From assembly GCA_013112715.1 (NCBI GenBank), contig JABFGB010000016.1, positions 1-64,000 of the forward strand: 64,000 nucleotides of DNA, given 5' to 3'. Made by a program: the position numbers and the translations under genes. The notes under the pieces are model-generated. The model did no database searches. It was not told the DNA's origin and saw only the letters and a program-made list of their open reading frames with translations. Positions 4,502-42,781 of the stretch are shown piece by piece (position 1 is the stretch's first letter; every line of letters begins with the position of its first letter). The stretch comes from Chloroflexota bacterium. GTDB lineage: Bacteria; Chloroflexota; Anaerolineae; Aggregatilineales; J027.

Positions 4502-4547
4502 GATACTTTCTCCTCGCGTTGGTCGGATGCGCATCCCCCGGTAGATT

Positions 4548-4778: not shown

Positions 4779-4782
4779 CACC

Positions 4783-6056: not shown

Positions 6057-6091
6057 GGTATACTCTCCTAGCTAATCTGATAAAGGTTGGT

Positions 6092-6126
6092 AAATCCCCC
6101 GGTGCTTGCAGGCGGTTGGGGGATTT
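6092..6126 (-). terminator. hairpin after recT (partial terminator or processing site)
   Basis: A 9-bp stem (6092-6100 with 6118-6126) with a 17-nt loop lies between recT and the downstream early genes. On the minus strand the T-run is short, so termination is probably incomplete. Confidence 0.45.
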
Positions 6127-6138
6127 TTGATTTACGGG

Positions 6139-7128
6139 TTACAGACGACGGCTACCACTTGCGCCCAATTTCTTGGCGGTCAAAGTGGCAACAAGTTGAG
6201 TCAATTCGGCGAGATTCAAATCCTCTAGGGTCTTGGCTTGGGGATTGATGCCACGTATCATGCTGGCCTTTTTGACCTTCCAGCCGTCCGGGGTGAACAC
6301 GTCTTCGCCCAAAATAGCCACGTCCACACGGGCCTTTTCGAGGGCGTCAGGGTCAACGGTCTCTGGTTGCGGCGTTGGTTCAGTTATGGTCTCACCTTCG
6401 ACAGTTGGCATGTGGTCGTCACCGAATAAATCCGAGAGTTGGCTAGGGTCAACGTGTTCAGTAATCACCCCTTCCTCATGGGCAGCTTCAACAGGTTCGC
6501 CCGCTTCGAGTTGTCCGACAGCGACCACCGAAGCAGCCGCGCTCATGACGGTTTGGAAATACTGATGGTCTTCATCCAACACGGGCACGGACATGGGGAT
6601 AGCATGACGGACACCGTGCATGATGGCGACCTTTGCCAGCATGTGGCGGGGCTTGGTGTACCACAGGGAATTTTTGGTTTTCCATTCGGCGTCAGGGTCT
6701 TGTTTGGGTTGCCATTCGGACAGGAACGCCGTGAAGGTATAGGGACGACTACTATCCTTACGGTAGATCGTGGCGGTACACCATGCCTCGCCTGTTTTGA
6801 AGTCCGTGCCGTGCTGAACTTGGATGGATTCCAGTAGTCCAGTGTCTTGGGCATGGGCGACCACGCCGTCGCGGGTGATGTAGGGCGTGTAGGTGTCAGT
6901 CTTCTTTTTGTAGTCGTGGAATTTCAAAATGACCACATGACGGGAAAAGGGATTCAGGCGGTACATCTGACACCACATAAAGGCCATGTCTACCGCATCA
7001 TCCGGCACGCCTTTAAACAGGGCTTCACGAATCATGATCTTGGTTTGGTCATTCCACACCAGTTCGTTACTGGCGCGGGTTTCGACTGCTTGGGTGTCGG
7101 TGCTTGGAGTTAACTGCATAATTGCCAT
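6139..7128 (-). CDS. recT: RecT/Bet-family single-strand annealing recombinase
   Basis: The 329-residue product matches the RecT/Redbeta-type pattern: an N-terminal helical part with CQMYRLNPFSRHVVILKF (about residues 52-70), ITRDGVVAHAQ (about 84-94), and the signature WYTKPRHMLAKVAIMHGVRHA (about 155-175, split here by eye). Family members anneal complementary single strands in phage replication and recombination. The C-terminal 130 residues are acidic, then carry a short helical segment. A TGAGGA site precedes ATG 7128. No partner 5'-3' exonuclease or SSB is seen in the operon within this window. Confidence 0.85.
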   Translation of the reverse strand: MAIMQLTPSTDTQAVETRASNELVWNDQTKIMIREALFKGVPDDAVDMAFMWCQMYRLNPFSRHVVILKFHDYKKKTDTYTPYITRDGVVAHAQDTGLLESIQVQHGTDFKTGEAWCTATIYRKDSSRPYTFTAFLSEWQPKQDPDAEWKTKNSLWYTKPRHMLAKVAIMHGVRHAIPMSVPVLDEDHQYFQTVMSAAASVVAVGQLEAGEPVEAAHEEGVITEHVDPSQLSDLFGDDHMPTVEGETITEPTPQPETVDPDALEKARVDVAILGEDVFTPDGWKVKKASMIRGINPQAKTLEDLNLAELTQLVATLTAKKLGASGSRRL

Positions 7129-7164
7129 GATTTTGATTCCTCACATACTTGGATGGTCGAAAGG

Positions 7165-7186
7165 AAAAGCCCCACCGAAGCGGGGC
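7165..7186 (-). terminator. attenuator-like hairpin upstream of recT
   Basis: A GC-rich stem (GCCCC at 7169-7173 with GGGGC at 7182-7186) is followed on the minus strand by CTTTTCC. It lies between the first early gene and recT and could lower recT expression. Confidence 0.45.
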
Positions 7187-7196
7187 GGGTAGACGA

Positions 7197-7652
7197 TTAA
7201 CTAGCCTTCGCAAAACGGCCAGCGGAACGGGCGGGGTAAGCGCGGTCTTCGCGCTCACAGGCTTCGGCGGTGGCATCGGCCAGTTGATCCATCAGGCCAG
7301 TGAAGAGGGAGGCAAGGGCGGTTTCCTGCAAGCCGACCATTTGGCGGGTTTCGCTGCGGAGGTCGCTTTTGAACAGGCGTGTCCATGTGTCGCCGCGTTC
7401 GATCACGTAGGCGTAGGCTTCTTCGTAGAAGTCGCTGTACTTGACCTGCCACTCCTTATCCAGAATGAGCAGGCGGGCGGCTTCGATTTCGACTTCGCTG
7501 TGGCTGCTGCCGAGGACGTTCATCACGAAGCCGTAGGACTCGTTGCGCCATGCGAGGTATTGGTCATGCACGGCGTCTTCGCTGATGACTTCAAAGACGA
7601 TGGGGAGAATGGGGTCAGGCAGGGCGATGGTTTCATTACAGGGGTTAAACAT
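7197..7652 (-). CDS. hypothetical first gene of the prophage early operon (151 aa)
   Basis: ATG 7652 is chosen because AAGGAG lies 10 nt upstream; the longer frame would start inside the promoter-leader region. The protein is acidic and helical, with no recognised motif. The N-terminal part (ALPDPILPIVFEVISEDAV) and helical middle could be a small regulatory or anti-host protein; that is speculation. It is the promoter-proximal gene of the early operon and therefore likely the earliest expressed. Confidence 0.55.
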   Translation of the reverse strand: MFNPCNETIALPDPILPIVFEVISEDAVHDQYLAWRNESYGFVMNVLGSSHSEVEIEAARLLILDKEWQVKYSDFYEEAYAYVIERGDTWTRLFKSDLRSETRQMVGLQETALASLFTGLMDQLADATAEACEREDRAYPARSAGRFAKAS

Positions 7653-7700
7653 GATACAATGCTCCTTAGAGGCTTGTGCCTCAACTTGTTTGGCGAGTGG

Positions 7701-7730
7701 CCCCCGTCTGATTGACTGGTCTAGCGGGGG
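7701..7730 (-). promoter_or_regulatory. leader hairpin in the early-operon 5' UTR
   Basis: CCCCCG (7701-7706) pairs with CGGGGG (7725-7730). It lies between the predicted transcription start (about 7745) and the ribosome site of the first early gene, so it would cap the mRNA leader. Confidence 0.4.
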
Positions 7731-7751
7731 TTTATTCGTTGATATATAAAA

Positions 7752-7780
7752 ATTATAGAGCATAATAAGTTTTTAGTCAA
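7752..7780 (-). promoter_or_regulatory. near-consensus sigma-70 promoter of the early operon
   Basis: On the minus strand, TTGACT (7775-7780) and TATAAT (7752-7757) are separated by exactly 17 bp. It points into the operon that ends at 3779. Confidence 0.8.
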
Positions 7781-7825
7781 GGATTTCATGCCGTTTTCAG
7801 GCGATCCCCTCAAAATTAGGGGGCA

Positions 7826-7853
7826 ACAAAAAGTCGGGCTTTTTACCCGACTT
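7826..7853 (-). terminator. terminator after the prophage membrane-protein gene
   Basis: AAGTCGGG (7831-7838) pairs with CCCGACTT (7846-7853); on the minus strand the stem is followed by TTTTTGTTG. It ends the leftward transcript of the 7919-8482 gene just before the early promoter. Confidence 0.7.
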
Positions 7854-7918
7854 GGATATATACTTCATTTACCCCATAGAAGCGCCGCATTACCCCCACT
7901 TCTCCCCATGCGGCGTTT

Positions 7919-8482
7919 TTATTTTTTCATCGCCCGTAGCTTCGCCAGTACCTTTTGAGCGCGGGGGTCGTTGGTAGTTTCCAGTAGTGAGATCGCCATT
8001 TTGATATTGCCGTTCTTATAAACTCGTTGGGCTTCACTCAAGATTTGCTCTATGGTTGGCGGGGCAGGGGTTAGCGGCTGCGGATGACTGGTATAGAGTA
8101 TAGAAGGACGGCTTCTTTCTTGGACGGGCGGCGGGCGATTGGCTTGCCGGGTTGCCTCTAATAATTCTTGGTGCCGTCGTTCCTCAAGGTCATATTTCGC
8201 CTGCTTTTTATCTTTCTTATAACGATCAAGGCCCTTAACTCCCAGTATCAAGGTTAATAGACCGCATCCCCCTGTGGCAGCAAGATAATAGAGGGACTCC
8301 GTTACTTTTTTCTGCCATCGATCACTATACCAATCTTTAGTTTCTTCATCGTCATCTCTTAAAATAGATTCAATGGAATCGTCGCCCGCTGCTATCGCTT
8401 CTTTTCTGAGATCGTTATAAATCAAACCGAAGACTATAGTCAACAATAGAAAAACCATTGCGGCATCCAATTGGCGGTTCAT
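7919..8482 (-). CDS. prophage membrane protein with two TM segments and a helical tail
   Basis: The 187-residue product has hydrophobic spans at about 8-24 and 66-85, a charged coiled-coil-like segment (about 88-115), a Pro-rich linker and a C-terminal helical repeat (IEQILSEAQRVYKNGNIKMAISLLE) that looks like a single TPR-type hairpin. GAGG lies before ATG 8482. It diverges from the Cro/CI-like regulator at 8633, the usual place for lysogeny-expressed (moron or exclusion) genes. Function unknown. Confidence 0.6.
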   Translation of the reverse strand: MNRQLDAAMVFLLLTIVFGLIYNDLRKEAIAAGDDSIESILRDDDEETKDWYSDRWQKKVTESLYYLAATGGCGLLTLILGVKGLDRYKKDKKQAKYDLEERRHQELLEATRQANRPPPVQERSRPSILYTSHPQPLTPAPPTIEQILSEAQRVYKNGNIKMAISLLETTNDPRAQKVLAKLRAMKK

Positions 8483-8569
8483 AAGTATTATCCTCTTGCA
8501 AAGTAGACACTCTTAGCATATACCCTAGCGATTATTTTTGGCAAATTTTGGCCCGCGCAGGAAAACTTA

Positions 8570-8599
8570 TTGACAAGTATAAGCTATTTGCGCTAGACT
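8570..8599 (+). promoter_or_regulatory. promoter of the Cro/CI-like regulator
   Basis: TTGACA (8570-8575) and TAGACT (8594-8599) are separated by 18 bp, 34 nt before the ATG at 8633. Confidence 0.65.
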
Positions 8600-8632
8600 G
8601 TAGTTATTCACCTGAGAAGACTAGGAGTGGCA

Positions 8633-8899
8633 ATGATACTGAAGTCTCAGTTTAAGCAACTTCTCTTTGAAAAGAGCAAGAAAGAGAATCGCCGCATCAC
8701 CTATCGGGAAGTCGCAGAAGCCACTGGGTTGACCGAGGCCACAATTAACCACTGGGCCAACAGCAAGCAACTTAGCCAAGTGCGCGATATTGCTGTAATC
8801 CCACTGTGCGAATATTTCGGCTGTACAGTTGGCGACTTAATCGCTTTGGGGAGCGTTGAAGACCCCGAAAAGGAAACCCGCTCTGCCCACGCCGCATAG
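8633..8899 (+). CDS. Cro/CI (XRE)-type helix-turn-helix regulator (88 aa)
   Basis: Residues about 20-70 form an XRE-like HTH (ITYREVAEATGLTEATINHW, then RDIAVIPLCEYFGCTVGDLI). ATG 8633 is chosen because AGGAG (8623-8627) overlaps the alternative GTG at 8627. It has its own sigma-70 promoter and a terminator that overlaps its stop codon. Located at the element edge and divergent from a membrane-protein gene, it is a plausible lysogeny repressor, though it is very short for a CI-type protein and has no dimerisation domain. Confidence 0.75.
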   Translation: MILKSQFKQLLFEKSKKENRRITYREVAEATGLTEATINHWANSKQLSQVRDIAVIPLCEYFGCTVGDLIALGSVEDPEKETRSAHAA

Positions 8900-8919
8900 C
8901 AGCAGGCAAAGCGGGTTTT
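8874..8919 (+). terminator. terminator overlapping the 3' end of the HTH gene
   Basis: AAACCCGCT (from 8874) pairs with AGCGGGTTT ending near 8918, with an inner TGCC/GGCA pairing, followed by TTTT. The stop codon lies inside the loop. Confidence 0.7.
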
Positions 8920-9015
8920 ACATTGTCCAAAACTGTTCTTGATGTGTGGTCAATGAACAGTGAAGCACCTTAACAATTACATACCCAAAACTGCGTTCAG
9001 GATGGGAAAAAGAGG

Positions 9016-9089
<74 letters not shown>

Positions 9090-20624: not shown

Positions 20625-23219
20625 ATGACCGCTTCAAAATTTGTGTCGAATGGCGTCTATCCTACATCCACTGCCGTAGTACTTTTGGTGGATGTGAGCG
20701 GCATCATCCACTTTGCCACTGAAGATATAGATCAATTATTAGGTGTTTCGGGGGCGGAAGCCATCGGTAAATCCCTTTTTGATCTGATGCCGCCAGAAAA
20801 ACAAGCACCAAGTCACCACGAATGGTCAACGTTCGTTCAGCATGTTTTGGCTGAGGGACCTCATGCCCACAATTTTCAGACGATTTTAGTCGAAGGCGCT
20901 GGCAAACCTTTGTCGGTTCGTCTGAGGGTGACTCCCGTACCTAATCGAGATGAATTGTTGGTACAGATCGAAACTGAGACCAGCAATATTGAACGTGCCC
21001 AAACCCTTGCCTTGCAAAAAGTAATTTCGGCAATCACGACCCTCGATATTCGGGAAATACTAGACCTAATCTTGGATCAGGCAACTTATTTTATCCCATC
21101 TGACGGTGCAGTTATTGTGGTTGAGGTCAACGATGATTTGCATCTGGTCAGCGAACGGGGGTATTTCGAATGGAAGGATATTCACTCAACCTATCCCTCA
21201 GCGGAAATTATGCGGGCGGAGACCACCCGAATTTTGCGCGAAACTCGCCGCCCCTTGATTATTGATGATTGCCAAAACGACCCACGCTGGCAGGTGCTGG
21301 GGGCTGAACCCTCCATCGCAAGCTGGTTAGGTGTGCCGCTCGTCTTCCGGGATACCTTTTTGGGGATGCTGCATCTGTATTCATCAACAGCCCATTCATT
21401 TAGTCAGAACGATGCCAATCTCGCCATGAGTTTTGCCGAAGAAGCGGCGGTCGCCATTCACAACACGCGGCTGTATGAAGAAGCCCAAACCCGTGCCCAA
21501 ATGCTCGAAACCCTGAATGATTTAGGGGTTGCGGTGAGCCGTTTGGATTTGCACGGAGTCTTGGAAGTTGCCTATCAAAAACTGAGTCAGGTGATGGACA
21601 CCCGCAGTTTTTATATTGGTGTTTATAATCCGGAAACGCGCCAATTTTGGTTAACGCAGACGTATGATGATGGGCAGCGCATTGACGACCTTGTGACGCC
21701 GATTGAGGAAGAAACCGGGCTGGTGGGATGGGTGTTTCATAACCGCAAACCGTTGATTATTCATGACGACAATCAAGACCTCTATCCCATTCCACCGATT
21801 ACCTATGGGGGGGATACGCGCAGCCTCGTCATTCTCCCATTAATGGTACAGGATGAATTTGTTGGGGTGATCTCTGTACAGAGCTATATCCCGAATCGTT
21901 TTAATGAACAGGATATTGCGGTGCTGCAATCCGTCGCCAGCCCCTTAGCAATTGCGATACGGAATGCGCAACTGTATGAAAATGCCCAGCGTCGCCTAGC
22001 CGAAGTTTCGGCACTACATGAGTTGGCACGAACTGTCACCAGCACTAACAGCACCGAGTCCATTAGTCAAATGGTCGTCAACAGCCTTCATACGATTTTT
22101 CAATGTCAGGCAAGTGCGCTTTTGTTAGTTGAAGGTGATGAGGTGATTCTCAAGGCCTCGTCCGGTGTCGCGCCAGAATACATCCCCCTCGCCCGGTGGA
22201 AAATTGGTGAGGGGGTCGCTGGCAAAGTCGCCGCAACAGGCCAAACAATGTATATTCAAGATACCCAAGCAGTTCCCGATTTTATGTATTTGGAACCGAC
22301 TTTGCGGTCAATGTTGGCCGTGCCATTGAATTTCAATGATCAGGTGATCGGGGTGCTGTCCATTGATAGTGATACACCCCATGCCTTTACTGCCGACCAC
22401 GAGCGCGTCTTGAATATCGTAGCCGCACAGGTCGCCGCCGCGATTGAAAATGCCCGGCTTTTACACGAGACCCGCCAGCGAACGGTTGAATTAGAAGATG
22501 CTTATCGCCGATTGCAGTCGCTGAATGAATTTCGAGAAGAATTGGTACACAACATCAGCCACGATTTGCGGTCGCCGATGACGTTTGTCAAAGGCTATAT
22601 TGAACTTATGCGGGAACAAATGCTTGGCCCGCTGACCGAGGAACAGGTCAACGCGCTGGAAGTGATTGACCGAAAATCAGACGCGATGCTGCGGCTTATC
22701 AACGAAATTTTAAAGATGAAGGATATTCGCCCCGATACGCTCGAATTTGTCGAGGCCGATCTCGGTGACATTGTTCAGCAGCACATTGAGCAAGCGCGGA
22801 TGTCCTATGTCGACAGTGGCGTTATTTTTGAGCCTGCCCCTCGGCAAGGCCCTCTGATGGTGCGCGTTGATTTAGATAAAATGGATCGGGTATTGGAAAA
22901 TTTGGTTGCTAATGCGGTCAAGTTTTCTAAGGCGGGCGGACATGTACGCATCTATTGTGAGCCAAGCGAAGATCGTCGTCATGGACGGGTGATCGTGCAA
23001 GATGAAGGTATTGGAATTCCCAGTGATAAATTAAATTACGTGTTTAAGCGGTTTTTTCAGATAGATACTCCCGATGGTACATCTTTGGAAAGCGGTATCG
23101 GTATTGGCCTCTCCATTGTGAAGCAGATTGTAGAGGCGCATGATGGCAAAATCGAAGTAGAAAGCGAAGTAGGCAAGGGCAGCAAATTTTGGTTCACCTT
23201 GCCGCTTCGAGGAGGGTAA
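20625..23219 (+). CDS. PAS-GAF-GAF-GAF sensor histidine kinase
   Basis: The 864-residue cytoplasmic protein has an N-terminal PAS domain (about 15-110), three GAF domains (about 135-290, 295-455 and 460-625), each with a SWLGVPL- or LVILPL-type strand followed by GVL/GVI, a HisKA helix with NISHDLRSP (phospho-accepting His at about 645) and a HATPase_c domain whose N-box is [10 protein letters not shown] and whose G-box is [11 protein letters not shown]. No TM segment or receiver domain. It ends the KaiC cluster and probably feeds an unlinked response regulator. Confidence 0.9.
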
Positions 23220-23228
23220 ACGAGAGTA

Positions 23229-24302
23229 GTGGCGTTTGAAGTGACGGATGCCATTCAACGCGATTCCGACACATGGCGGGCACTCAAAGTGATGCCAAAA
23301 ATTGAACTCCACCGCCATTTGGAGGGGTCTATTCGCTTAGATACGTTGGTCGAGGTTGCCAAGCAATATGATATTCCGCTGCCCGCCTATGATGTGGAGG
23401 GATTGCAACCTTATGTCCAAGTGACTCGTGATGACCCGCCGACCCATCAACGATTTTTGAGTAAATTTAGCATCCTGCGCCAGTTTTTTGTGGCTGAGGA
23501 AGTGATTCGACGGGTGGCCTGTGAAGTCGTTGAGGACGCCGCCGCCGATAACGTCCGCTATATGGAACTGCGCTTCACCCCGTTTGCGCTGGCAAAATGT
23601 ATGGATTTCCCACTGGCCGATGTTATGACGTGGGTCAATGAAGCAGTGAGCGAAACTGCCAGCAAGTTCGGCATTCAGGTAGGTTTGATTGTCGCCATGA
23701 ACCGCCATGAAAGTGTTGCGATTGGCGAACAAATGATGCGCCTCGCTGTAGATTTCTTAGGGCGTGGCGTGACGGCAGTGGATTTGTGCGGCAACGAAGC
23801 GGGCCATCCTGCTGATCCCTTTACCTCCATTTTCCTAGAGGCTCACCAATCAGGCTTAGGGGTGACCATCCATGCGGGCGAATGGGCTGGCGCGGAAAAT
23901 GTGATTTATGCGATTGAGCAACTCCACACCCGCCGCATTGGACATGGGGTGCGGGCTATAGAGAATCCGGTTGCCTTACAATTGGCACAGGATTACGGCA
24001 TTTGTTTGGAAGTCTGCCCAACCTCGAATTTGCAGACGGGTGTAGCGGCCTCGGTTGCCCAACATCAGTTATTGAACCTACGTTCGTTGGGCCTCAATAT
24101 CACCCTCAACACCGATGATCCAACCGTAAACAACACAACACTGACTGATGAGTATGCGTTGGCTGTACAGGGGTTAGGCTTCCCCATCGAATATCTTCAG
24201 CAGTGTATTCTCAATGCGGTGCAAGGGGCATTTTTGTCACCCAATGAAAAAGCAGCCCTTGAAGCCGAATTCAGAACGGCATTTAATGGGCAGGTGTTAT
24301 AA
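23229..24302 (+). CDS. add: adenosine deaminase
   Basis: The 357-residue product has the zinc-binding HRHLEGS (about 25-31), HAGEWAG (about 215-221), GHGVRA (catalytic-loop His near 238) and NTDDP (about 294-298), the set that defines adenosine and adenine deaminases. It converts adenosine to inosine. GTG 23229 is used with GGAGGG about 12 nt upstream. It follows the kinase gene by 9 nt. Adenine deaminases share these motifs; the choice of adenosine is by overall appearance. Confidence 0.85.
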   Translation: MAFEVTDAIQRDSDTWRALKVMPKIELHRHLEGSIRLDTLVEVAKQYDIPLPAYDVEGLQPYVQVTRDDPPTHQRFLSKFSILRQFFVAEEVIRRVACEVVEDAAADNVRYMELRFTPFALAKCMDFPLADVMTWVNEAVSETASKFGIQVGLIVAMNRHESVAIGEQMMRLAVDFLGRGVTAVDLCGNEAGHPADPFTSIFLEAHQSGLGVTIHAGEWAGAENVIYAIEQLHTRRIGHGVRAIENPVALQLAQDYGICLEVCPTSNLQTGVAASVAQHQLLNLRSLGLNITLNTDDPTVNNTTLTDEYALAVQGLGFPIEYLQQCILNAVQGAFLSPNEKAALEAEFRTAFNGQVL

Positions 24303-24348
24303 TCCCTACAATCAATGAATCATTCAAAATTCCCCGCAAGGACTGTGC

Positions 24349-25227
24349 ATGTTCAAATTAGATCATGATGCTTTTACCGTCCATGTCTTCAGCGACGGCG
24401 AAGTGAAGGTGGATTGTGGCGGCCCTTTTGGGCTTGTGCCGCGTGTGTTGTGGAGTCGCTATCAGCCCCCCGATGCCAACCACATGCTGCCGATGTGCCT
24501 CAATAATCTGTTGATTCAGGCACATGGCAAAAATATCTTGGTAGATGTGGGGCTAGGCAGCAAATTAACTCCTAAAATGGTAGCCCAATGGCAATTGACA
24601 CATCCCAACGGTACATTAATTGAAGGGCTGGCGCGAGTAGGCCTAAAACCCGAAGACATTGACTTGGTGATTAACACCCATCTTCATGCCGACCACGCAG
24701 CGGGGAACACGATTTTGGGCGATGGTGGTCAAATCTTGCCTACTTTCCCAAATGCCGAGCATGTCGTCCAACGCCGAGAATATGAAGATGCGATGCGTCC
24801 CAATGAACGCACTGCCGCCACCTATATCGCCGCGAATTTTGAACCGCTGTTTCAAAATGGGCAGATGCGACTTTTGGAAGAGGATACTGAAATTTTGCCG
24901 GGGATTTGGGGTGTGGTGACACCCGGCCACACCCCCGGTCATATGAGTGTGGTGATTGACAGCGGTGGCGATCATTTATTGTTTGCCTGCGACCTTGCCA
25001 CCTATGCCGTTCACTTTGAAAAATTGGGATGGATGACCGCCTATGATGTCGAGCCGTTAGTGACGCTGGAGACCAAACGTAAATGGCAGCAGTGGGCATG
25101 GGAAACCAACGGGATTATAATTTTTCCGCATGATGTCACCCTGATGGCGGCCCGCCTCAGTCAAGACGAGGCCGGAAAACCCAAACTCATTCCATTGACT
25201 GAAGCCGAGGGCGCTTGCTATTCTTGA
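24349..25227 (+). CDS. metallo-beta-lactamase-fold hydrolase
   Basis: The 292-residue product contains the HxHxDH motif as NTHLHADHAAGN (about 107-118), a later metal His in PGHTPGHMSVVI (about 193-203), and FACDL with the bridging Asp. It resembles the MBL-fold lactonase / quorum-quenching and hydroxyacylglutathione hydrolase group, but the substrate cannot be assigned. AAGGA lies before the ATG. Confidence 0.85.
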   Translation: MFKLDHDAFTVHVFSDGEVKVDCGGPFGLVPRVLWSRYQPPDANHMLPMCLNNLLIQAHGKNILVDVGLGSKLTPKMVAQWQLTHPNGTLIEGLARVGLKPEDIDLVINTHLHADHAAGNTILGDGGQILPTFPNAEHVVQRREYEDAMRPNERTAATYIAANFEPLFQNGQMRLLEEDTEILPGIWGVVTPGHTPGHMSVVIDSGGDHLLFACDLATYAVHFEKLGWMTAYDVEPLVTLETKRKWQQWAWETNGIIIFPHDVTLMAARLSQDEAGKPKLIPLTEAEGACYS

Positions 25228-25274
25228 AGCATTGCATCGAACATTTAGCCTAGTCTAAAGAAAGTCAGCCATCC

Positions 25275-26066
25275 ATGCAGTCAAACGGTTTTTATGTTCC
25301 AAAACGTGTTATGGTCATTATGGCCCACCCCGATGATATTGAGTTCTCCTGTGCCGGAACAATCGCCCGTTGGGTCAAAGGCGGGGCGAAAGTTTGTTAT
25401 GTCTTGGTCACGAGTGGGGATGTTGGGATTGCCGATTTAACCCTGACCCGTGAGCAGGCTCGTGATATTCGAGAAGTGGAGCAAAGGACTGCCGCCGCCA
25501 AAGTGGGAGTCGAAGAAGTGGTCTTTTTGCGCGAACCTGATGGCATGTTGGTGAACACGCTCGACCTTCGCAAGCGCTTGGTGCGTGAAATTCGCCGCTA
25601 CAAACCGGATGTGGTGGTTTGCCAAGACCCTACGGCCTTTTTTGTCTCCAACACCTATATCAATCACCCCGATCATCGTGCGGCGGCAGCGGCGGCAGTA
25701 GATGCAGTTTTTCCGGCAGCGGGTCAACCCCATATTTTTCAGGAATTAGAGGCCGAGGGCTTGTCGGCACATAAGGTCAAAAAAGTGTATGTTTCGACAT
25801 GGCGTGAAGCCGATACGTATGTCAACATCAGCGACACGATAGATTTAAAAATAGAAGCCCTATTTGCTCATAAGAGCCAGATGGATGAGATGATCCGTCA
25901 GGGTCGTGGTAAATTGGAAGATATTGGCAAATGGGTGCGGGAGTGGTCATCCGAGCGCGGGCAAGGCAAAGAGATGGCCTATGCCGAATCGTTTAAAGTG
26001 GTGACGCTAGAAGAAGACACGCCAGAGCAGGTGACTGAGGGCGCAATTGTTGAAACCAATAGTTAG
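25275..26066 (+). CDS. PIG-L / LmbE-type zinc deacetylase
   Basis: The 263-residue protein has [13 protein letters not shown] (zinc ligands His and Asp, about 17-29) and the second zinc region [12 protein letters not shown] (about 132-143). The family removes acetyl groups from N-acetylglucosamine conjugates such as those in mycothiol, bacillithiol, teicoplanin-like or GPI-type pathways. Acceptor unknown. It sits between an MBL hydrolase and a cell-wall amidase. Confidence 0.87.
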
Positions 26067-26123
26067 CCAAATGGGGCGGTAGCCATGCCGCCTATTTATT
26101 TTTTATATTGGGACGACTGATTC

Positions 26124-27254
26124 ATGACTGATACCCCATCATCCCCACTCCCGCCGAGCCATGACCCTGATGGGATTGATTGGTTGAATCAGTCCACTCC
26201 ACTGAATCGGCCTTTAAATCCGTCTGGTGCGCGTCCCACATCCACTCCACCACCTACTGAAGAACCCGAATTGGTAATGGAGGATGATCTGCCCCGCCCG
26301 CGCCGCCGTGTGCCGATGGGTGCGCCCGATGTGAAAGTGCCTCCTTCTGCTGAGGAAATTCGCCGTGCCCGTCGCGCTCAACGCGAAGCCCAAAAAAGGT
26401 ATCAAAAAGAACACGAACCACGTGAAAGCATGACGCGGGTACTCTGGCAGACCACCCGGATTTTTGCGATGACTTCCGTTGCGGCCCTCTTGATGGCGAC
26501 GATTTTTTCTTATTGGACACCGGATGATTTCCTATCCCCTGAATTTCGTGAGAAGATGCGGGTCGTCAATACGACACAGCAGGCGGGTTCACCGTTGACA
26601 CTGGCAACCCCATTGCCGACCCAAGAAACGGTCATACGGGTTGGGATTATTGCGGGTCATAGTGGGCCACCCCAAGACCCCAGTTTTACGGAAGACCCCG
26701 GTGCGGTGTGTGATGAAAATAACGATGGGGTAGCCGAACTGCGTGAATTGGACATCAATACAGAAGTTGCCCGCTTGGTGGTCAATAAATTATTGGCGCG
26801 GGGCTATGAAGTGGATTTAATGGAAGAATTTGATCCCCGCCTGCATGACTATCGGGCAGCCGCACTGCTTTCAATTCACACCAATGACTGCCGCAATTAT
26901 GGGTTGGAAGCGTCGGGTTACAACGCGGTGGGGCCAGCCGAGCGTGTGCTGCGCGGCATTGATGAGGCCTTTGTCAATTGTGTGATAGACGAATATGGGC
27001 GTGTAACCGGATTACCTCGCCACACAGGGGTAACAGTTGACATGACTTCTTATCATAATTTCAATGAAGTCTCGATAGACACTCCGGCGGTGATTATTGA
27101 GCTTGGTTTTATGTATATGGATCGCCAGATCGTCACCAATCAGCGCGACCTGCTGGCGGAGGGTGTATTTCAAGGGTTGATGTGTTTCCTAGAACCAGAA
27201 AATCGAGCGGGTTCCGTTCCTTCTACGCCGCCACCCGCCACCGTAATTCCCTAA
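26124..27254 (+). CDS. membrane-anchored N-acetylmuramoyl-L-alanine amidase (Amidase_3)
   Basis: The 376-residue protein has a long Pro-rich, basic cytoplasmic N-terminus (1-110), one TM span (about 113-133) and an extracellular Amidase_3 domain (about 170-360). The expected ligands are visible: GHSG (His near 178), RELDINTEVA (Glu near 208), SIHTND (His near 251) and the catalytic Glu in IIELGFM (near 326). It cleaves the bond between MurNAc and L-Ala in peptidoglycan. The large intracellular N-terminus is unusual and may bind a partner. Confidence 0.85.
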   Translation: MTDTPSSPLPPSHDPDGIDWLNQSTPLNRPLNPSGARPTSTPPPTEEPELVMEDDLPRPRRRVPMGAPDVKVPPSAEEIRRARRAQREAQKRYQKEHEPRESMTRVLWQTTRIFAMTSVAALLMATIFSYWTPDDFLSPEFREKMRVVNTTQQAGSPLTLATPLPTQETVIRVGIIAGHSGPPQDPSFTEDPGAVCDENNDGVAELRELDINTEVARLVVNKLLARGYEVDLMEEFDPRLHDYRAAALLSIHTNDCRNYGLEASGYNAVGPAERVLRGIDEAFVNCVIDEYGRVTGLPRHTGVTVDMTSYHNFNEVSIDTPAVIIELGFMYMDRQIVTNQRDLLAEGVFQGLMCFLEPENRAGSVPSTPPPATVIP

Positions 27255-27269
27255 AAAATCGAGGTGGGT

Positions 27270-27641
27270 ATGCGACAATTGGTTATGTATGTGCGGCGTA
27301 ATTTTTGTCCCTATGTTGGGATAGCACGGCATGTTTTAGACGAACTTGGCGTGCCCTATCGTGAAATTGATATGGACATTGACCCGGCTGCGCGGGAACG
27401 GGTGGTTGAATGGACGGGTTATTTATCTGTGCCGACATTGGTGCTGGCGGAAGTGGGGGAGGTTGTTCCCTATGAACCCCCGACCCACTTACCACGCGGC
27501 CACAGTCCACGCGGAATTGATCGGGGTTCGATGATTACCGAGGCCACTGATTCTGAACTGACCCGCTGGTTAAATAAGCACGGCCTGATTCCGCATGATG
27601 CCGCCGAAATGAAAGATGCCCTTGACCGGGGGGCGGATTAG
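27270..27641 (+). CDS. glutaredoxin-like protein (monothiol)
   Basis: ATG 27270 with GAGGTG upstream is chosen over GTG 27264. The 123-residue product opens with a glutaredoxin core (MYVRRNFCPYVGIARHVLDE), where the usual CPYC is CPYV, so only one Cys remains. GYLSVPTLVLAE carries the cis-Pro. The C-terminal 45 residues extend beyond the fold. Role in thiol redox control is inferred. Confidence 0.8.
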   Translation: MRQLVMYVRRNFCPYVGIARHVLDELGVPYREIDMDIDPAARERVVEWTGYLSVPTLVLAEVGEVVPYEPPTHLPRGHSPRGIDRGSMITEATDSELTRWLNKHGLIPHDAAEMKDALDRGAD

Positions 27642-27666
27642 GTGATAAGATTCATTTAATTCGATA

Positions 27667-27750
27667 GCCGAAATGGCGGAATTGGCAGACGCGCTACGTT
27701 CAGGGCGTAGTTCCTTTACAGGAGTCTGGGTTCGACTCCCAGTTTCGGCA
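27667..27750 (+). tRNA. tRNA-Leu (anticodon CAG)
   Basis: Cloverleaf with acceptor GCCGAAA and TTTCGGC, anticodon arm CTACG-TTCAGGG-CGTAG with anticodon CAG, long variable arm (CCTTTACAGG), T loop TTCGACT and discriminator A. No CCA encoded. Confidence 0.95.
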
Positions 27751-27762
27751 CTGAAATAAATC

Positions 27763-27788
27763 AATCCGGTTTTTAGCCGGATTTTTTT
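27763..27788 (+). terminator. terminator of tRNA-Leu
   Basis: AATCCGG (27763-27769) pairs with CCGGATT (27777-27783), followed by seven Ts. It overlaps the 3' end of the convergent gene at 27773. Confidence 0.85.
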
Positions 27789-28441
27789 GTTTTTCTAGCC
27801 TTTTCAATCTCTCGAATACAGCTTTTTGCCTCTTCTCCAATTGTTGGGTCAGAAACTTGTCCTTTAATCACATCCAATATAGCCATGTCATTTGACCACA
27901 AAAAATAACGCTTCAGGGCGTGCAGAGCATACATGCGAATAGCTTCGGTTTTCGATTGATTTTGGATGTACTCGATAAGTGCCCGCAAAGTTTTTTCGCT
28001 TGGCTTGTGTTTGTAATGGTTGATTCCAAAATCTATAGCTGATATAAAAATCATTTTTGCATCCCAGTCTTGGGAATTCTCTAGGCCAATCATCAGCATA
28101 TCAATTGAAAATTCATTTTGTGTAACCTTAGTGAACTCAATATCCCAATCCACATCACTCCAATCAGGGTAAATCTCCACTGCCTTGATAATTTCTTGGA
28201 CGGAGCGTGGAGTACGGATATCAATAAGTGCATAGGCAGCACATTCCCGCCTTGTCCAATCAATGGATGTAAATTCTTCCATTGGTTTTTCCACAGTAAG
28301 CAAAATAGCGGTTAGGGTATCAACTGCCGCGTCGCCCATTTCGGCGATCTGATGCACAAGTTTCCATATCTCTTCTAGGCTTTCATTATTTTCTACGGCA
28401 TGACAATAATCCGCTACAAGCCTTTGCATTGTTTCATTCAT
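27773..28441 (-). CDS. HEAT-repeat-like helical protein (222 aa)
   Basis: The protein is wholly helical and acidic. Repeating blocks of about 35-40 residues such as TRRECAAYALIDIRTPRSVQ, DWDAKMIFISAIDFG and TEAIRMYALHALKRYF fit HEAT-like hairpins. No catalytic motif. The gene is AT-richer than the flanks and diverges from 28514. It may be a scaffold or immunity-type protein; the family is not recognised with confidence. Confidence 0.6.
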   Translation of the reverse strand: MNETMQRLVADYCHAVENNESLEEIWKLVHQIAEMGDAAVDTLTAILLTVEKPMEEFTSIDWTRRECAAYALIDIRTPRSVQEIIKAVEIYPDWSDVDWDIEFTKVTQNEFSIDMLMIGLENSQDWDAKMIFISAIDFGINHYKHKPSEKTLRALIEYIQNQSKTEAIRMYALHALKRYFLWSNDMAILDVIKGQVSDPTIGEEAKSCIREIEKARKTKKSG

Positions 28442-28513
28442 TGGAAATCTACTTTCTCATCTATACTTAGATATTATAATAACCTGAATGGTGGAAAACG
28501 GGTGGGTGAGAAA

Positions 28514-29236
28514 ATGCTTATCATTGGAAACTTTGACTATCGGTATCCGGGTATAAAAACTGCTGAAGATGTTGAAAAACTTGGACAGCGAAATTTGGTT
28601 GCCCATGTATTTAACTATCCCTCATCAGTCGAGCAGTGGTTTCCCTATCCGGCTGTTGAGCGAAGGAGTTTGTTAGATTTATGGTACAAGGAAAAATTTG
28701 AGCAAATTCAGGCAGAGGTGGCGCTTAGAAATATCAAATTATCTAAACGAGGAAAGTACAATTCATTTGATTGTGAATTGGATGCTAATGAATTACCAAA
28801 ACTACTTGCCATAGATGGCATTACTATGGTCACTATAAGTAAAATTGAGGGTCTCAAACCCATCAAACAAAGGGAACGTAAACGCCTCGAATGGTATATT
28901 GTGCAAGCGCGTTTTATCTGGGAAGTGGAAGGCCAAACTCAAGGGATGCAGATGGTTGAAGATCAGATGCTGTTGGTAAGGGCTTATGATTTTGATGATG
29001 CCGAACAACGCCTTCAGCAAAAATTCACTGAATACGGCGAACCTTATCTCAACACAGATGGTGAGATGGTTCGTATACGTTTGGATTGCATCCTAGAAGT
29101 TTTCCGAACCAACATCATGGATAAGGTTGATCCGAAAGGCGAAGAAATTTTCTATACCATAAAACACAGGCGGATGCGACCCGAATATGAGTGGCATCCG
29201 TTGCGAGATCAAAAACCAAAGGAAAAAGCAGAATAG
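28514..29236 (+). CDS. unknown protein with possible C-terminal DUF4288-like domain
   Basis: ATG 28514 is chosen (frame open from 28400). The 240-residue product is AT-rich. The C-terminal half (about 130-225) carries WYIVQARFIWEVEG, then VEDQMLLVRAYDFDDAEQRL, and LDCILEVFRTN, a pattern I associate with DUF4288-type domains often seen near polymorphic-toxin immunity genes. The N-terminal half (about 1-125) is not recognised. Convergent to the ABC permease operon. Confidence 0.45.
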   Translation: MLIIGNFDYRYPGIKTAEDVEKLGQRNLVAHVFNYPSSVEQWFPYPAVERRSLLDLWYKEKFEQIQAEVALRNIKLSKRGKYNSFDCELDANELPKLLAIDGITMVTISKIEGLKPIKQRERKRLEWYIVQARFIWEVEGQTQGMQMVEDQMLLVRAYDFDDAEQRLQQKFTEYGEPYLNTDGEMVRIRLDCILEVFRTNIMDKVDPKGEEIFYTIKHRRMRPEYEWHPLRDQKPKEKAE

Positions 29237-29238
29237 TT

Positions 29239-30210
29239 TTATTCCACCTCGTAAGCCTGACCGACGTGGGCTGGGGGCCGCGCCCGACCCACAAAACCCG
29301 CCAGCACGATCACCGTGACGGCATAGGGAATCAAGGCCACCAATTGATGTGGCACAACGATTCCGAAAAATTGCAGTTGGCTTTGCAGGGCCGTCAAGAA
29401 GCCGAACAACAACGCACCCATCAATGCCCCAATCGGATGCCATTTGCCAAAAATCATCACCGCCAGCGCGATAAAACCCTTACCTGCTGTCATGCCGCGT
29501 TCAAAAACGCCAACATCCGCCAGTGTCAGGTAGGCTCCGGCCAAACCAGCCAATGCCCCGCTAAAAAACAGATTGGTGTATTGCAGGCGATAGACATTGA
29601 TACCGAGGGTATCGGCGGCGCGAGGATTTTCGCCAATCGAGCGAGTGCGTAATCCCCAAACGGTACGGAAGAGGGCAAACGCGATAAAGCCGACAATCAC
29701 AAAGGTCAAATAGGTGATGATGTCTTTGTCAAACAGCACCGCACCGACATTGTAGAGAAAATCGCCTTTTTCCCATGGATTGGAGATGAGCGGGGGAATT
29801 TTGCCTTTAGTTTCGGTCTGGGCATTATAAAAATAGCCTGTCACGCCCGCTGCCAGAATATTGACTACTGTTCCACTGATGATGTGGTCAACCTTGTAAC
29901 GGATACATAGCAGGGCATGAAACAACCCCATCAAGCCGCCTGTTAAAACACCCACCAAAACACAAACCCCCAGTCGCATGTTGTCATCGGCAAAGGTCGA
30001 AATATCCGACCCGCTGAGATAGGAATTCATCATGTAGCCCGAAAAGGCCGCCATCAACATCATGCCTTCGATGCCAATGTTGACGATACTGGAGCGTTCA
30101 CTGAGGAGGCCGCTTTGTGAGCCGAGCGTAATTGGGATGGCTTGTCGAATCGTCGCGTTTAAGGTGGCGATCACTGCCCCCGTCGTGATGGTTAAACCCA
30201 AAATATCCAT
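29239..30210 (-). CDS. nucleoside-type ABC transporter permease (second permease)
   Basis: The 323-residue polytopic protein matches the branched-chain-amino-acid/ribose permease superfamily (BPD_transp_2), with the signature LLSERSSIVNIGIEGMMLMA (about 34-53) and a late AGLAGAYLTLADVGVF-type loop. It most resembles the nucleoside uptake permease NupQ/YufQ. It follows the larger permease by 25 nt. The usual ATP-binding and BMP lipoprotein genes are not adjacent. Confidence 0.8.
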   Translation of the reverse strand: MDILGLTITTGAVIATLNATIRQAIPITLGSQSGLLSERSSIVNIGIEGMMLMAAFSGYMMNSYLSGSDISTFADDNMRLGVCVLVGVLTGGLMGLFHALLCIRYKVDHIISGTVVNILAAGVTGYFYNAQTETKGKIPPLISNPWEKGDFLYNVGAVLFDKDIITYLTFVIVGFIAFALFRTVWGLRTRSIGENPRAADTLGINVYRLQYTNLFFSGALAGLAGAYLTLADVGVFERGMTAGKGFIALAVMIFGKWHPIGALMGALLFGFLTALQSQLQFFGIVVPHQLVALIPYAVTVIVLAGFVGRARPPAHVGQAYEVE

Positions 30211-30235
30211 AATTATTTCCTTGAATAAGTGCCTT

Positions 30236-31426
30236 TTATCGCTGACCCCAACCGGTACTCAATTTTTGTCCGCCTTTACCACTGACCCGTACCCGATACA
30301 ACCAGCGGATAATCTGTGGCGCGGCAATAAACATCAAAATGAGGGCTTGGATCACCAGAATCAGTTCCGGGGCGACACCACTACGCTGCATACGAGTCGT
30401 ACCCTGATCCATCGAGCCGAACATAAAAGCTGAGAACATAATCCCAAGCGGGTTATTGGACGCTAGCAGCGATACAGTGATGCTGTCGAATCCCAGACCG
30501 AGACTTTGATTGGCTTCGTAATACCCGTTGATGCCCAACGTCTGGACAGCACCTGCCAGTCCTGCCAGACCGCCTGCAATCGCCATTGTTGAAATGGTCA
30601 GCCGTTTGACATTCACCCCGGCGTATTGGGCTGCCGAGGGATTTAGCCCAACCATGCGGAGTTCAAAGCCAAAGGTGGTACGGTTGACCAGCAGCATAAT
30701 TAAAATAGCGGCGGCTACAGCGATAAAAAGGCCGATATTTAAATTGGGTACGGATGGCGGTGGGACTTCAAACACTACTGGGAGCCGGGCCGATTCCAAT
30801 ACAGGCCGCGTGCGCGAAATTGCACCGCTGTTGGGGTCAGCCAATGGGCCGGGAGGGATTTTGCCATCGGCACTGCCCAGTGAGATCATCCATTCAGCGA
30901 TACGGCTGGCGATAAAATTAAACATGATGGTCGTGATGACTTCGTGAGCGCCAGAATAGGCTTTTAGAGCGCCCGGTATCGCCCCCCACAGCGCCCCAGC
31001 GAGAGCGGCTGCGCCCATTGCCAAAATGATATGTAACCAGCTTGGCAATCCACTAAAGGCATAACCTGCCCATGCCGCTGCAACGGAGCCGACAATTAGC
31101 TGGCCCTGTGCGCCGATGTTAAACAGCCCACCTTTGAACGCGAAGCCGACAGCGAGACCAGAGAGAATGAGCGGCGACGTTTTAAGCAGGCTTTGGACTA
31201 GGCCGCGTGGTTCTAACCATGCCCCTTCAACCAAGCCTGTATAGGCAGCAATAGGATCACGGCCTGCCAGCAAGATCATCACTGAACCAACCAAGATGGC
31301 GGTCAAGATTGCCAGCGCCGGAATTAGGAGAGTATTAGACAAATCGCGGAGACTGTTGACTATTTTGGTGACTATTGAGGGGACTAGTGGCCCCTTGACA
31401 GTACCGGATTTGGCGATAGTTGCCAT
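30236..31426 (-). CDS. nucleoside-type ABC transporter permease (first permease)
   Basis: The 396-residue protein has an N-terminal extension to about residue 55 and then the permease core: FKGGLFNIGAQGQLIVGSVA (about 102-121, EAA-type region), AYSGAHEVITTIMFNFIASR and MVGLNPSAAQYAGVNVKR. This resembles NupP/YufP, which pairs with NupQ. It opens the two-permease pair and follows pncC by 67 nt. Likely imports purine nucleosides, which adenosine deaminase at 23229 could use; substrate is inferred. Confidence 0.8.
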   Translation of the reverse strand: MATIAKSGTVKGPLVPSIVTKIVNSLRDLSNTLLIPALAILTAILVGSVMILLAGRDPIAAYTGLVEGAWLEPRGLVQSLLKTSPLILSGLAVGFAFKGGLFNIGAQGQLIVGSVAAAWAGYAFSGLPSWLHIILAMGAAALAGALWGAIPGALKAYSGAHEVITTIMFNFIASRIAEWMISLGSADGKIPPGPLADPNSGAISRTRPVLESARLPVVFEVPPPSVPNLNIGLFIAVAAAILIMLLVNRTTFGFELRMVGLNPSAAQYAGVNVKRLTISTMAIAGGLAGLAGAVQTLGINGYYEANQSLGLGFDSITVSLLASNNPLGIMFSAFMFGSMDQGTTRMQRSGVAPELILVIQALILMFIAAPQIIRWLYRVRVSGKGGQKLSTGWGQR

Positions 31427-39396: not shown

Positions 39397-40101
39397 ATGG
39401 ACGATAAAAAACCGCAAGATTACAAAGTCAGCGTGATTATTCCCTGTTATAACGAAGTCAAGACGATTCAGGATGTGCTGCATCGAGTGATGGCCGTTGA
39501 AGAAGCCGACGAGATTATTATTGTGGATGATGGCTCGACGGATGGCACTCGTGATTTATTGCCTTCCCTTGAAAATGAATTAGTACGAATTGTGCTGCAT
39601 CCTCACAACATGGGCAAGGGCGCGGCGGTCCGCACAGGGTTTAAAGAGGCGACAGGCGATATTATCCTGATTCAGGACGCCGACCAAGAATACGACCCGC
39701 GTGAATATGCCACCCTACTCAAACCTATTCGTGAAGGCATTGCAACGGTGGTTTATGGGTCGCGGTTTTTGGGCGGCCCGCGCAAAGCCATGTTTTTCTG
39801 GAATATGGTTGCCAATCGCACCTTAACTTTAGTCACGAATATACTCTACAATTCCATCATCAGTGACATGGAAACGTGCTATAAGGTGTTCCGGGCTGAT
39901 GTGATTAAGAATATTGAGCTGCACTCTAATCGGTTTGAAATCGAGCCGGAAGTGACCGCCAAAGTCTTGAAACGCAAAATCCGCATCTATGAAGTGCCAA
40001 TTTCCTATAATGGGCGCGAATGGAACGAAGGCAAGAAAATCAAATGGTATGATTTTTTCATCGCCCTATGGACATTATTCCGGTATCGCTTTACAAATTA
40101 A
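39397..40101 (+). CDS. GT2 family glycosyltransferase (DPM1-like)
   Basis: The 234-residue protein has [19 protein letters not shown] (about 11-29), the DxD-type [13 protein letters not shown] (about 46-58) and [12 protein letters not shown] (about 88-99), as in dolichyl/polyprenyl-phosphate mannose synthases, but without TM anchors. It would make a polyprenyl-phosphate sugar donor. It precedes a GT39 membrane transferase by 20 nt, the usual donor-and-user pairing. Confidence 0.88.
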
Positions 40102-40121: not shown

Positions 40122-41564
40122 ATGAAGCGCCGTCAAGCAGCCTTCTGGTTAAATGTGCTGCTGTTGTGGGTTGGAGCAGGGCTACGCTTTCATTATCTGG
40201 CAGATGCCGAACCGCTACATCCCGATGAAGCCCTGTTTGCAACCTTGGGGCGGCGCATGGTACAGCAGCAAGATTGGCTGTTAAACGGTGCTACCACCGA
40301 CAAACCCCCTTTAAGCTATCTCTTGGTGGGGACGAGTCTTGCTGGAGTGGGGCAGAACGAATTTGCGGCCCGTCTGCCCTCGGTGTTTGCCAGTCTCATG
40401 GGGGCGGTGGCGTTTTTTGCCCTGATCCGCCGATTATCCAAGCGTACACCTACTGCCCATCTCGGCTTACTGATCTACCTCCTATCCCCACTTGAAATCG
40501 CGTTTGCCCCAACCATTTTCCAAGATACCTTAATGCTCCCCTGCGTGCTTCTAGCGGCGGCGTGGGCCACCCGTCAAAAATGGGCTTGGACGGGAGCGCT
40601 GTTGGGTTTGGCGTGGGTCATGAAACCAACGGCGTTGTGGGTGCTGCCATTAGTTATCGGCATCGGTATTTTTGCCTCACCTGTTTGGTCATCGGAAAAT
40701 GCCGCTCCCATTCCGCTGAGTCGCATTTTCAATCATGCCAAACATTTCATTATCGGCACATTACTGACCCTTGTGCCTGTTCTGGCGTGGGATATAGCCC
40801 GCCCGCAGCAAAGTTTCGTGACACTCGGCAGCTATAACAACAATCCGGGGCGCTTGGCACGGGCTGATGAAATCGGGTCACGCGCCGAGGCATGGTTGCA
40901 CTTATTGGCGGATACGTTCGGCGGGCCAATTATCGGGATGATGGTTTTCGTTATCGTGGTGGGTTGGTTGATTTTCACTGCCCAAAAACGCCATCCCGCC
41001 CGTTGGATAAGCTGGGTTATCGCGTTATTTCTGGTATGGTATCTGGGTCTCTATTGGCTTGTGGCGTTTAGCGTAAGAATCCGCTATCTGCTGCCGATTA
41101 TGCCCTTTATTTTGCTCCTGATGGCACTGGCGATTGGGGAATGGGCCTCACGCGGGCGATGGAGAGTGCGGTTCAGTGCCATTGGGATTATGTTGGTAAT
41201 GACCTACCCCGCTTTAACGGCGCGACCCCTCAGCCGCGAAACCCAAGATTTTGAGTTGCAGGGGATTGATGAACTTGCCGACACACTAAATCAGGATTTT
41301 GCAGATCGGATTATCTACGATTATTGGCTAGGTTGGGAATTGGGCTGGTATTTGGGGGAAGATACCGATGTGTGGCTGGTTTATTTTTCTACCCCTGAGG
41401 AACTGGCCGCACATCTACAAACTGAAACCGGAGCACGGTACCTAATCGCCCCGAATGAAGAATTGGCACAGATGTGGGTTTGGATAATGGAGTTAAAAGG
41501 TATTTGGGTCTTTATTGATAGACAGATTGGAGGTTTTATTATCTATACTGTTATCCCTAAATAA
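40122..41564 (+). CDS. GT39-like (ArnT/PMT-type) membrane glycosyltransferase
   Basis: The 480-residue protein has about ten TM spans. The first loop holds LHPDEALFATLGRRMVQQ (Asp-Glu pair near 33-34) and TDKPPLSYLLVG (about 60-71), the donor-binding signatures of GT39/GT83 enzymes such as ArnT. It uses a polyprenyl-phosphate sugar and modifies lipids or proteins on the outer face. The preceding GT2 gene supplies the likely donor. Confidence 0.85.
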   Translation: MKRRQAAFWLNVLLLWVGAGLRFHYLADAEPLHPDEALFATLGRRMVQQQDWLLNGATTDKPPLSYLLVGTSLAGVGQNEFAARLPSVFASLMGAVAFFALIRRLSKRTPTAHLGLLIYLLSPLEIAFAPTIFQDTLMLPCVLLAAAWATRQKWAWTGALLGLAWVMKPTALWVLPLVIGIGIFASPVWSSENAAPIPLSRIFNHAKHFIIGTLLTLVPVLAWDIARPQQSFVTLGSYNNNPGRLARADEIGSRAEAWLHLLADTFGGPIIGMMVFVIVVGWLIFTAQKRHPARWISWVIALFLVWYLGLYWLVAFSVRIRYLLPIMPFILLLMALAIGEWASRGRWRVRFSAIGIMLVMTYPALTARPLSRETQDFELQGIDELADTLNQDFADRIIYDYWLGWELGWYLGEDTDVWLVYFSTPEELAAHLQTETGARYLIAPNEELAQMWVWIMELKGIWVFIDRQIGGFIIYTVIPK

Positions 41565-41688
41565 AATCAATCGATTCAATTGGGAGCGTGTACAAAATGC
41601 GGTACAGCGATCTCAGAAATCTTTCAAACCTATCGAAGACGCTGGTTGGCATACTTTTAGGTGAGATTCAGTCCGACCTCACCGATGG

Positions 41689-41719
41689 GGTCGGGGGTTC
41701 GAGTTTCTTGGCACCCACA
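41689..41719 (+). other. tRNA-Val-3'-half-like sequence (relic or tRNA mimic)
   Basis: Read by eye, 25 of 31 bases match the variable-arm-to-3'-end part of the tRNA-Val at 9016-9089, including an intact T loop TTCGAGT. Acceptor-stem partner and anticodon arm are absent, so it is not a tRNA. Confidence 0.5.
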
Positions 41720-41722
41720 TTA

Positions 41723-41757
41723 AGTCAACTTCCATTGGTTGGCTCTTTTTATTTTTT
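41723..41757 (+). terminator. intrinsic terminator just upstream of the OCD-family gene
   Basis: A 7-bp stem with one G-T pair (41723-41729 with 41738-41744), 8-nt loop, then CTTTTTATTTTTT. It lies 32 nt before the ATG, so it ends the GT2-GT39 transcript or acts in a leader of the next gene. Confidence 0.75.
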
Positions 41758-41788
41758 CAAAGATACCTTTTCGAAGGAATAAAAATCT

Positions 41789-42781
41789 ATGGAACTATTG
41801 ATTCTCAATGCGGCACAAGTACGTCAGCTTTTGCCAATGGCCGCCTGTATGGATGTGATGGCAGAAGCATTGCAAGCGTTAGGACGTGGGGAGATGCAAA
41901 ATCCACTGCGAACGTTTACATGGCTGCCCGATAAACATGGCCTGTTAGCAGCAATGCCCGCCATTGCCCCGCAGGTAATGGGCATCAAGGTCATCAGTGT
42001 AATGCCGGGGAACATGGACACCGAATATGAATCCCACATGGGCGCGGTAATGATTTTCGACACAACTTACGGACGCCCCCTCGCCTTGATGGATGCCAGT
42101 GAAATCACCACCATTCGTACCGCCGCCGTCAGTGGAGTCGCCACACGTCTTTTGGCCCGTGAAGATGCCAGCGATTTAGCCATTTTGGGAACAGGCATAC
42201 AGGCCATCAGTCATCTGGAAGCGATGTTGGTGGCTCGCCCAATTAAACGAGTGCGGGCATGGAGTCGGCATCAGGAAAATCGAGAGAAATTCGCGGCACA
42301 GGCTCAAACACGCTTTGGCATCTCTGTTGAATTGACCGAAACAGCCCAAGATGCGGTACTTGGTGCGGACATCATTTGTACCACAACCTCATCAAATCAA
42401 CCTGTTCTACAAGGCGAATGGCTGTTGGATGGCGTACATTTGAATGTAGTCGGGGCTTCCACGCGCCAAGCCCGCGAAGTGGATACCGCCGCGATGGTCA
42501 AATCGAGTCTATTTGCAGATCGGCGTGAATCGGTGTTGAATGAGGCAGGCGATTTCTTGATTCCCAAACAAGAGGGTGTGATTGATGATAACCATATTCG
42601 GGGGGAACTTGGTGAAATTTTGTTAGGGCAAATTCCGGGTCGGCAGAGTCGCACCGAAATCACCCTATTTAAATCGCTGGGGTTAGCTGTCGAAGACCTT
42701 GCCTCCGCCCACTACATCTATCGTCAAGCGGTACAGGAGGGGATTGGTACAGCCGTTGAGTTTGGCTCAACACGACACTAA
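41789..42781 (+). CDS. ornithine cyclodeaminase / mu-crystallin family protein
   Basis: The 330-residue protein has the N-terminal LLPMAACMDVMAEALQALGRGE and LAAMPAIAP..GIKVIS region with the substrate Lys, a Rossmann motif LAILGTGIQAISHLEAML (about 131-148) and AVSGVATRLLAREDA (about 112-126). Family members include ornithine cyclodeaminase, alanine dehydrogenase, lysine cyclodeaminase and ketimine reductases, and the exact activity cannot be read from the sequence. Arginase 4 kb upstream makes ornithine a plausible substrate. The leader region 41565-41788 has structured elements. Confidence 0.83.
   Translation: MELLILNAAQVRQLLPMAACMDVMAEALQALGRGEMQNPLRTFTWLPDKHGLLAAMPAIAPQVMGIKVISVMPGNMDTEYESHMGAVMIFDTTYGRPLALMDASEITTIRTAAVSGVATRLLAREDASDLAILGTGIQAISHLEAMLVARPIKRVRAWSRHQENREKFAAQAQTRFGISVELTETAQDAVLGADIICTTTSSNQPVLQGEWLLDGVHLNVVGASTRQAREVDTAAMVKSSLFADRRESVLNEAGDFLIPKQEGVIDDNHIRGELGEILLGQIPGRQSRTEITLFKSLGLAVEDLASAHYIYRQAVQEGIGTAVEFGSTRH

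Follow-up and report, generated by a model that had tools for sequence, protein, structure and literature searches.

In T-box leaders and riboswitch attenuators, an amino-acid-related gene is preceded by hairpins and a terminator. The same order of hairpins and terminator, ahead of an amino-acid-related gene of the OCD/mu-crystallin family (hereafter OCD), occurs at 41565-41788 of the window, as we call the whole stretch of 64,000 nt analysed here, and the initial annotation of this DNA proposed an RNA attenuator responding to ornithine, another ligand or a tRNA. Unlike that class of leaders, the region has no match in Rfam, its pairing is not conserved and its tRNA-like part is a fragment of a genuine tRNA gene. 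A different comparison is with the phage tyrosine integrases that target tRNA genes (PF00589, phrog_1), where a tRNA 3′ part directly behind the integrase gene forms the core of the attachment site (att); the window shares this layout, although it keeps only the last codons of the integrase.

The closest precedent that we found is archaeal: in Thermococcus, a prophage lies in an Arg-TCT tRNA gene, and a subsequent inversion left partial and full copies of the tRNA on opposite strands (PMC9897764). In both cases there is an integrated element, the tRNA occurs as a full and a 3′-partial copy, and an inversion at a later stage has separated these copies and turned them onto opposite strands. Unlike in the Thermococcus account, the host here is bacterial, with relatives in the Chloroflexi, and the target is tRNA-Val(CAC); the copies are ca. 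32 kb apart versus ca. 179 kb, and the partial copy has decayed below detection by ARAGORN. The window locus is a new instance of this known kind.

We consider, with a probability of about 95%, that the region is the decayed right attachment junction (attR) of a tyrosine-integrase element, of prophage type, in the 3′ part of tRNA-Val(CAC), and that a later rearrangement put the genes GT2 and GT39 ahead of it. A tyrosine-integrase element would have entered the tRNA-Val(CAC) gene ahead of OCD, within its 3′ part, giving a full tRNA copy at the far end of the element and leaving the host's own 3′ part, with the tRNA terminator, beside OCD; the integrase gene of the element has its 3′ end in the DNA just before this host part. 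Later, a rearrangement, in its simplest form an inversion between the point where GT39 borders its next gene and the integrase end, would have carried the intact tRNA and ca. 32 kb along in reverse and brought GT2-GT39 in front of the scar. The parts of the scar and its neighbours, with the basis of each assignment, are as follows.

1-9013: prophage end abutting the 3′ end of tRNA-Val (Pfam and PHROGs).
6139-7128, minus strand: gene for a RecT-family annealing protein, in the prophage end (Pfam/PHROGs).
8627-8899: gene for a Cro/C1-type regulator, in the prophage end (Pfam/PHROGs).
9014-9089, minus strand: intact tRNA-Val(CAC), on the attL side of the prophage (ARAGORN); the sole full-length match in the window genome.
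39397-40101, plus strand: GT2 glycosyltransferase gene (PF00535), moved here by the rearrangement, in inverted order with respect to genome G001.
40122-41564, plus strand: GT39-like gene (PF13231), with last codons unlike those in G001.
41578-41646, plus strand: remnant of a tyrosine-integrase gene, its last codons (tblastn with residues 286-317 of the G003 integrase, E=1.8e-4; DNA alignment to G003; reading frames).
41660-41694, plus strand: two mutually exclusive hairpins, situated between integrase end and tRNA part and found in the window copy alone.
41683-41719, plus strand: decayed 3′ part of tRNA-Val(CAC), the host-side half of the attachment site, attR (alignment with the intact tRNA-Val that G004 and G001 have at this site, and with the 3′ parts left in G003 and G002).
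41723-41758, plus strand: intrinsic terminator of the former tRNA-Val gene, today between GT39 and OCD (pattern scan).
41789-42781, plus strand: OCD/mu-crystallin family gene, 330 aa (PF02423, E=6.4e-81).

Of 41 genomes, 14 have matches to the OCD protein, counting the genome of the window itself, and all four other genomes of the same genus (G001 to G004) carry a copy with 85–94% identity. In G001 and G004 the site is empty: a complete tRNA-Val(CAC) stands directly upstream of OCD, with the same terminator between the two and the same downstream flank. G002 and G003 have no complete tRNA upstream of OCD and show the 3′ part of tRNA-Val alone; compared with the intact tRNA of the window, this part has no difference over 39 nt in G003 and 98% identity over 45 nt in G002. 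Directly before this part ends a complete tyrosine-integrase gene (317 aa) in G003, and a shortened one with an internal stop codon in G002, which makes this the attR junction of an element that entered the tRNA. The region 41578-41758 of the window aligns with these filled sites, and the integrase stop codon, TAG in G003, reads TGG at 41647-41649. As expected of an attachment site, the tRNA part at 41683-41719 duplicates the intact copy of the same genome at 9014-9089, and an integrase lies beside it, complete in G003, broken in G002 and as a remnant in the window. Each of the five genomes has exactly one full-length tRNA-Val(CAC), and partial 3′ copies occur in G002, in G003 and on a second contig of the window genome, C28. 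The intact tRNA is found at the other end of the element in G002, where an insert of ca. 11.6 kb separates it from the 3′ part on one contig; in the window genome, after the rearrangement, the ends lie on contigs C16, that of the window, and C28. The G002 insert at tRNA-Val, on contig C53, contains an open frame of 2674 aa (22741-30765), whose translation reads as many PAS-like repeats with a histidine-kinase-like end.

The relic tRNA was compared with those of the relatives, along with the spacer that separates it from the ATG. Against each of G004, G001 and G003, 8 of 37 positions of the tRNA part are changed, not counting three gap columns; in the spacer the changes number 15, 14 and 13 of 70, respectively (two gap columns). 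Against G002, the figures are 7/37 for the tRNA part (11 gap columns) and 27/70 for the spacer (13 gap columns). Because these rates are similar, while the window's intact tRNA-Val shows 99% identity to the copies of its relatives, the former tRNA drifts like the spacer. Formal pairing persists at 5/5 positions of its T arm, four of them G-U. A functional tRNA at 41683-41719 was considered and discarded, since ARAGORN finds none there and the 5′ half is missing. As a separate observation on the tRNAs of these genomes, the tRNA-Leu(CAG) of G004 (L017:1043-1128; orthologue at 27667-27751 of the window) has an extra T in its anticodon loop, of 8 nt compared to 7 in the window, G001 and G002, which points either to a frameshift-suppressor-like tRNA or to an error of sequencing, the T run being short.

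The attachment sites were compared in an alignment of five att copies, namely the window relic, G003, G002, the copy on C28 and that of locus L039, leaving out the two genomes with an empty site, which have no att flank, and a distant viral copy (L043). In all five, a few tens of nt separate the end of the integrase from the tRNA 3′ part downstream, and by eye a tRNA-like 3′ part also stands behind the integrase of L043, a viral relative with 31% identity; the order of integrase and then tRNA 3′ part is general for this integrase. The L039 copy (5925-6025; JACRBG010000055.1) belongs to a second element of the JACRBG genome. Its integrase is related, at 67% identity, and behind it comes a 3′ part from a different tRNA, which may be another valine isoacceptor.

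The window genome also holds an intact integrase at C28:21858-22805 (PF00589, 2e-23), and a 49-nt tRNA-Val 3′ part follows it at C28:22830-22878. The element integrase matches both Pfam PF00589 and PHROGs phrog_1, and upstream of the C28 gene are genes for terminase, portal, head maturation protease and major head protein; the C28 element is therefore, from these PHROGs matches, of prophage type. The flank of the window's intact tRNA and the C28 att copy share 73.6% identity over 208 bp, att included. The portion of C28 with terminase, portal, capsid and integrase is probably the other part of the prophage whose end occupies 1-9013 of the window, and the mid-contig position of the att copy on C28 suggests an earlier tandem of two elements at the tRNA. 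Near this att copy, a cargo block (L038:3868-7810) encodes, as read from the translations, an MFS transporter, a methyltransferase, a protein with a metallo-beta-lactamase fold and an ArsR-type regulator with a rhodanese domain; two more copies of it, with 90% and 85% identity, occur in G003 on contigs C31 and C199.

Comparison of gene order with G001 indicates that 9015-41477 of the window is inverted, the DNA match to G001 ending at 41477, and that GT2-GT39 therefore now stand ahead of the scar. The same inversion is seen against G004 and G002, within reach of their contigs; the G003 contig ends inside the element and is uninformative on this point. The breakpoint lies at ca. 41556, near the 3′ end of GT39. 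In G001, GT39 is followed by an MgtE-like gene (from its translation), whose counterpart in the window genome is at C28:28816; ca. 20 nt of the old GT39 end stay at that flank, and the window GT39 ends in other codons. The C16 and C28 junctions look like the two sides of what would be one rearrangement, most simply an inversion. We infer the linkage of C16 and C28, because they are separate contigs in a draft assembly of 76. For this same reason the rearrangement might be an assembly artefact, with a real scar and GT2-GT39 elsewhere in the cell; we regard this as improbable, given that the flanks on C16 and C28 are reciprocal, that GT39 is broken close to its end and divided over the two contigs, and that by eye no repeat is common to both junctions. 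The 5′ part of the relic integrase was not found in C28:22881-28830 (no match with E below 0.3), and a one-step inversion therefore needs an extra deletion at the C28 breakpoint; the stretch of C28 between att copy and breakpoint holds cargo, part of which also occurs twice in G003, and this too speaks against a clean single step.

The structural features that had suggested a leader are all present in the sequence: two mutually exclusive hairpins, a tRNA-like T arm and a terminator ahead of the ATG. The first hairpin pairs GGTGAG with CTCACC (41660-41665 and 41678-41683) and the second CCGACC with GGTCGG (41673-41678 and 41689-41694), the latter extendable to 9 nt with 89% complementarity (41673-41681 and 41686-41694). 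They exclude each other through 41678-41681, an overlap narrower than the 41670-41683 first reported. Downstream, a T arm with the 3′ strand of the acceptor (41683-41719) precedes a terminator stem at 41723-41744 with a T-rich tail, which in a pattern scan ends ca. 30 nt from the OCD ATG at 41789. The fold of 41565-41830 is better than those of 200/200 shuffles (z -3.37). Among 2000 dinucleotide shuffles of the 224 nt, 318 had at least two perfect hairpins of at least 6 bp of any composition, 73 had a mutually exclusive pair of such hairpins, and in 2 both stems of such a pair contained four or more G-C pairs, a threshold fixed once the data were known. By these counts the hairpin pair is mildly unusual locally. 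On a fixed grid over C16, one of 574 pieces of 224 nt contained a GC-rich exclusive pair (at least four G-C pairs per stem); this single match is elsewhere, 41565-41788 itself straddling a grid border.

An RNA attenuator, either a riboswitch or a tRNA-sensing leader, that switches these hairpins upstream of the terminator to control OCD would be consistent with the exclusive GC-rich hairpins and terminator in series ahead of the ATG, and with the strength of the fold. Comparison with relatives speaks against it. All six pairs of each hairpin form in the window, but two to four of six for the first and three to four of six for the second form in the four other att copies, none of which keeps either hairpin. 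Covariation among relatives, proposed as a check in the initial annotation, did not exceed that of shuffled partners, and neither did pairing: 305 of 500 shuffles for hairpin 1 and 500 of 500 for hairpin 2 equalled or surpassed the number of paired cells. The six matches retrieved from Rfam up to E=5 all fell below the gathering score and were to snoRNA, scaRNA, CRISPR-repeat or lncRNA models, with no riboswitch, T-box or other plausible family. At ten more distant OCD loci no tRNA was found, and the 260 nt ahead of these genes contain neither a T loop nor a terminator. The place of the supposed leader is taken in relatives by an att junction or, in two of them, by a plain tRNA gene, and although a terminator does stand between leader and gene, in the relatives it follows the tRNA gene. 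It had also been proposed that relatives keeping the gene without the pairings or the terminator would speak against a regulatory leader; the pairings are indeed lost, and the terminator is kept within the genus. We thus reject an attenuator or riboswitch on comparative grounds and consider it very unlikely.

The terminator is found at the matching place in all five same-genus copies, with a shorter stem in the window, and by origin belongs to the tRNA-Val gene and not to a GT2-GT39 operon. The other reading offered initially, an operon terminator next to a relic, comes close to this. The relic exists, being composed of an integrase 3′ end and a 3′ part of tRNA-Val, and the terminator is real as well, but it is that of tRNA-Val itself and lies behind GT39 only as a result of the rearrangement. 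The terminator would now also end GT2-GT39 transcripts. The scar could even have been co-opted, the old terminator ending these transcripts while a constant readthrough, with no sensing, sets the level of OCD. The window keeps the terminator with its T-rich tail, GT2, GT39 and OCD are co-directional, and the promoter region of the tRNA in relatives no longer adjoins OCD. However, the terminator pre-existed for the tRNA and its presence therefore requires no new function, and a promoter scan of 41300-41900 gave two candidates against 1.1 expected, not above shuffles; we regard co-option as possible but rather unlikely. Far more speculative is a fuller scenario, in which a prophage-associated inversion would have exchanged the tRNA-Val promoter upstream of OCD for GT2-GT39, the decayed att/tRNA remnant and terminator exerting a partial-readthrough control and the integrase perhaps driving the rearrangement. 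Rearrangement driven by an integrase has been reported for a Thermococcus integrase (PMC5495485).

Returning to the decayed attR, the empty and filled sites, the att copies, the integrase remnant, the conserved terminator and the inverted order are visible in the sequences themselves. So are the use of tRNA-Val(CAC) as an integration site upstream of OCD and its decayed right junction in the window. The prophage type of the original insertion, an inversion in a single step and the order of events would follow as the likely history. Ligand or tRNA sensing is unnecessary for explaining the locus, which is an ordinary but well-documented genome scar. In all, our results remove a false riboswitch lead and illustrate how half a tRNA gene with its terminator can look like an attenuator. 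They also reveal tRNA-Val(CAC) to be an integration site, with a filled or scarred copy in three of the five genomes examined in this genus, and give a clean series of empty, filled and decayed site, with a later inversion.
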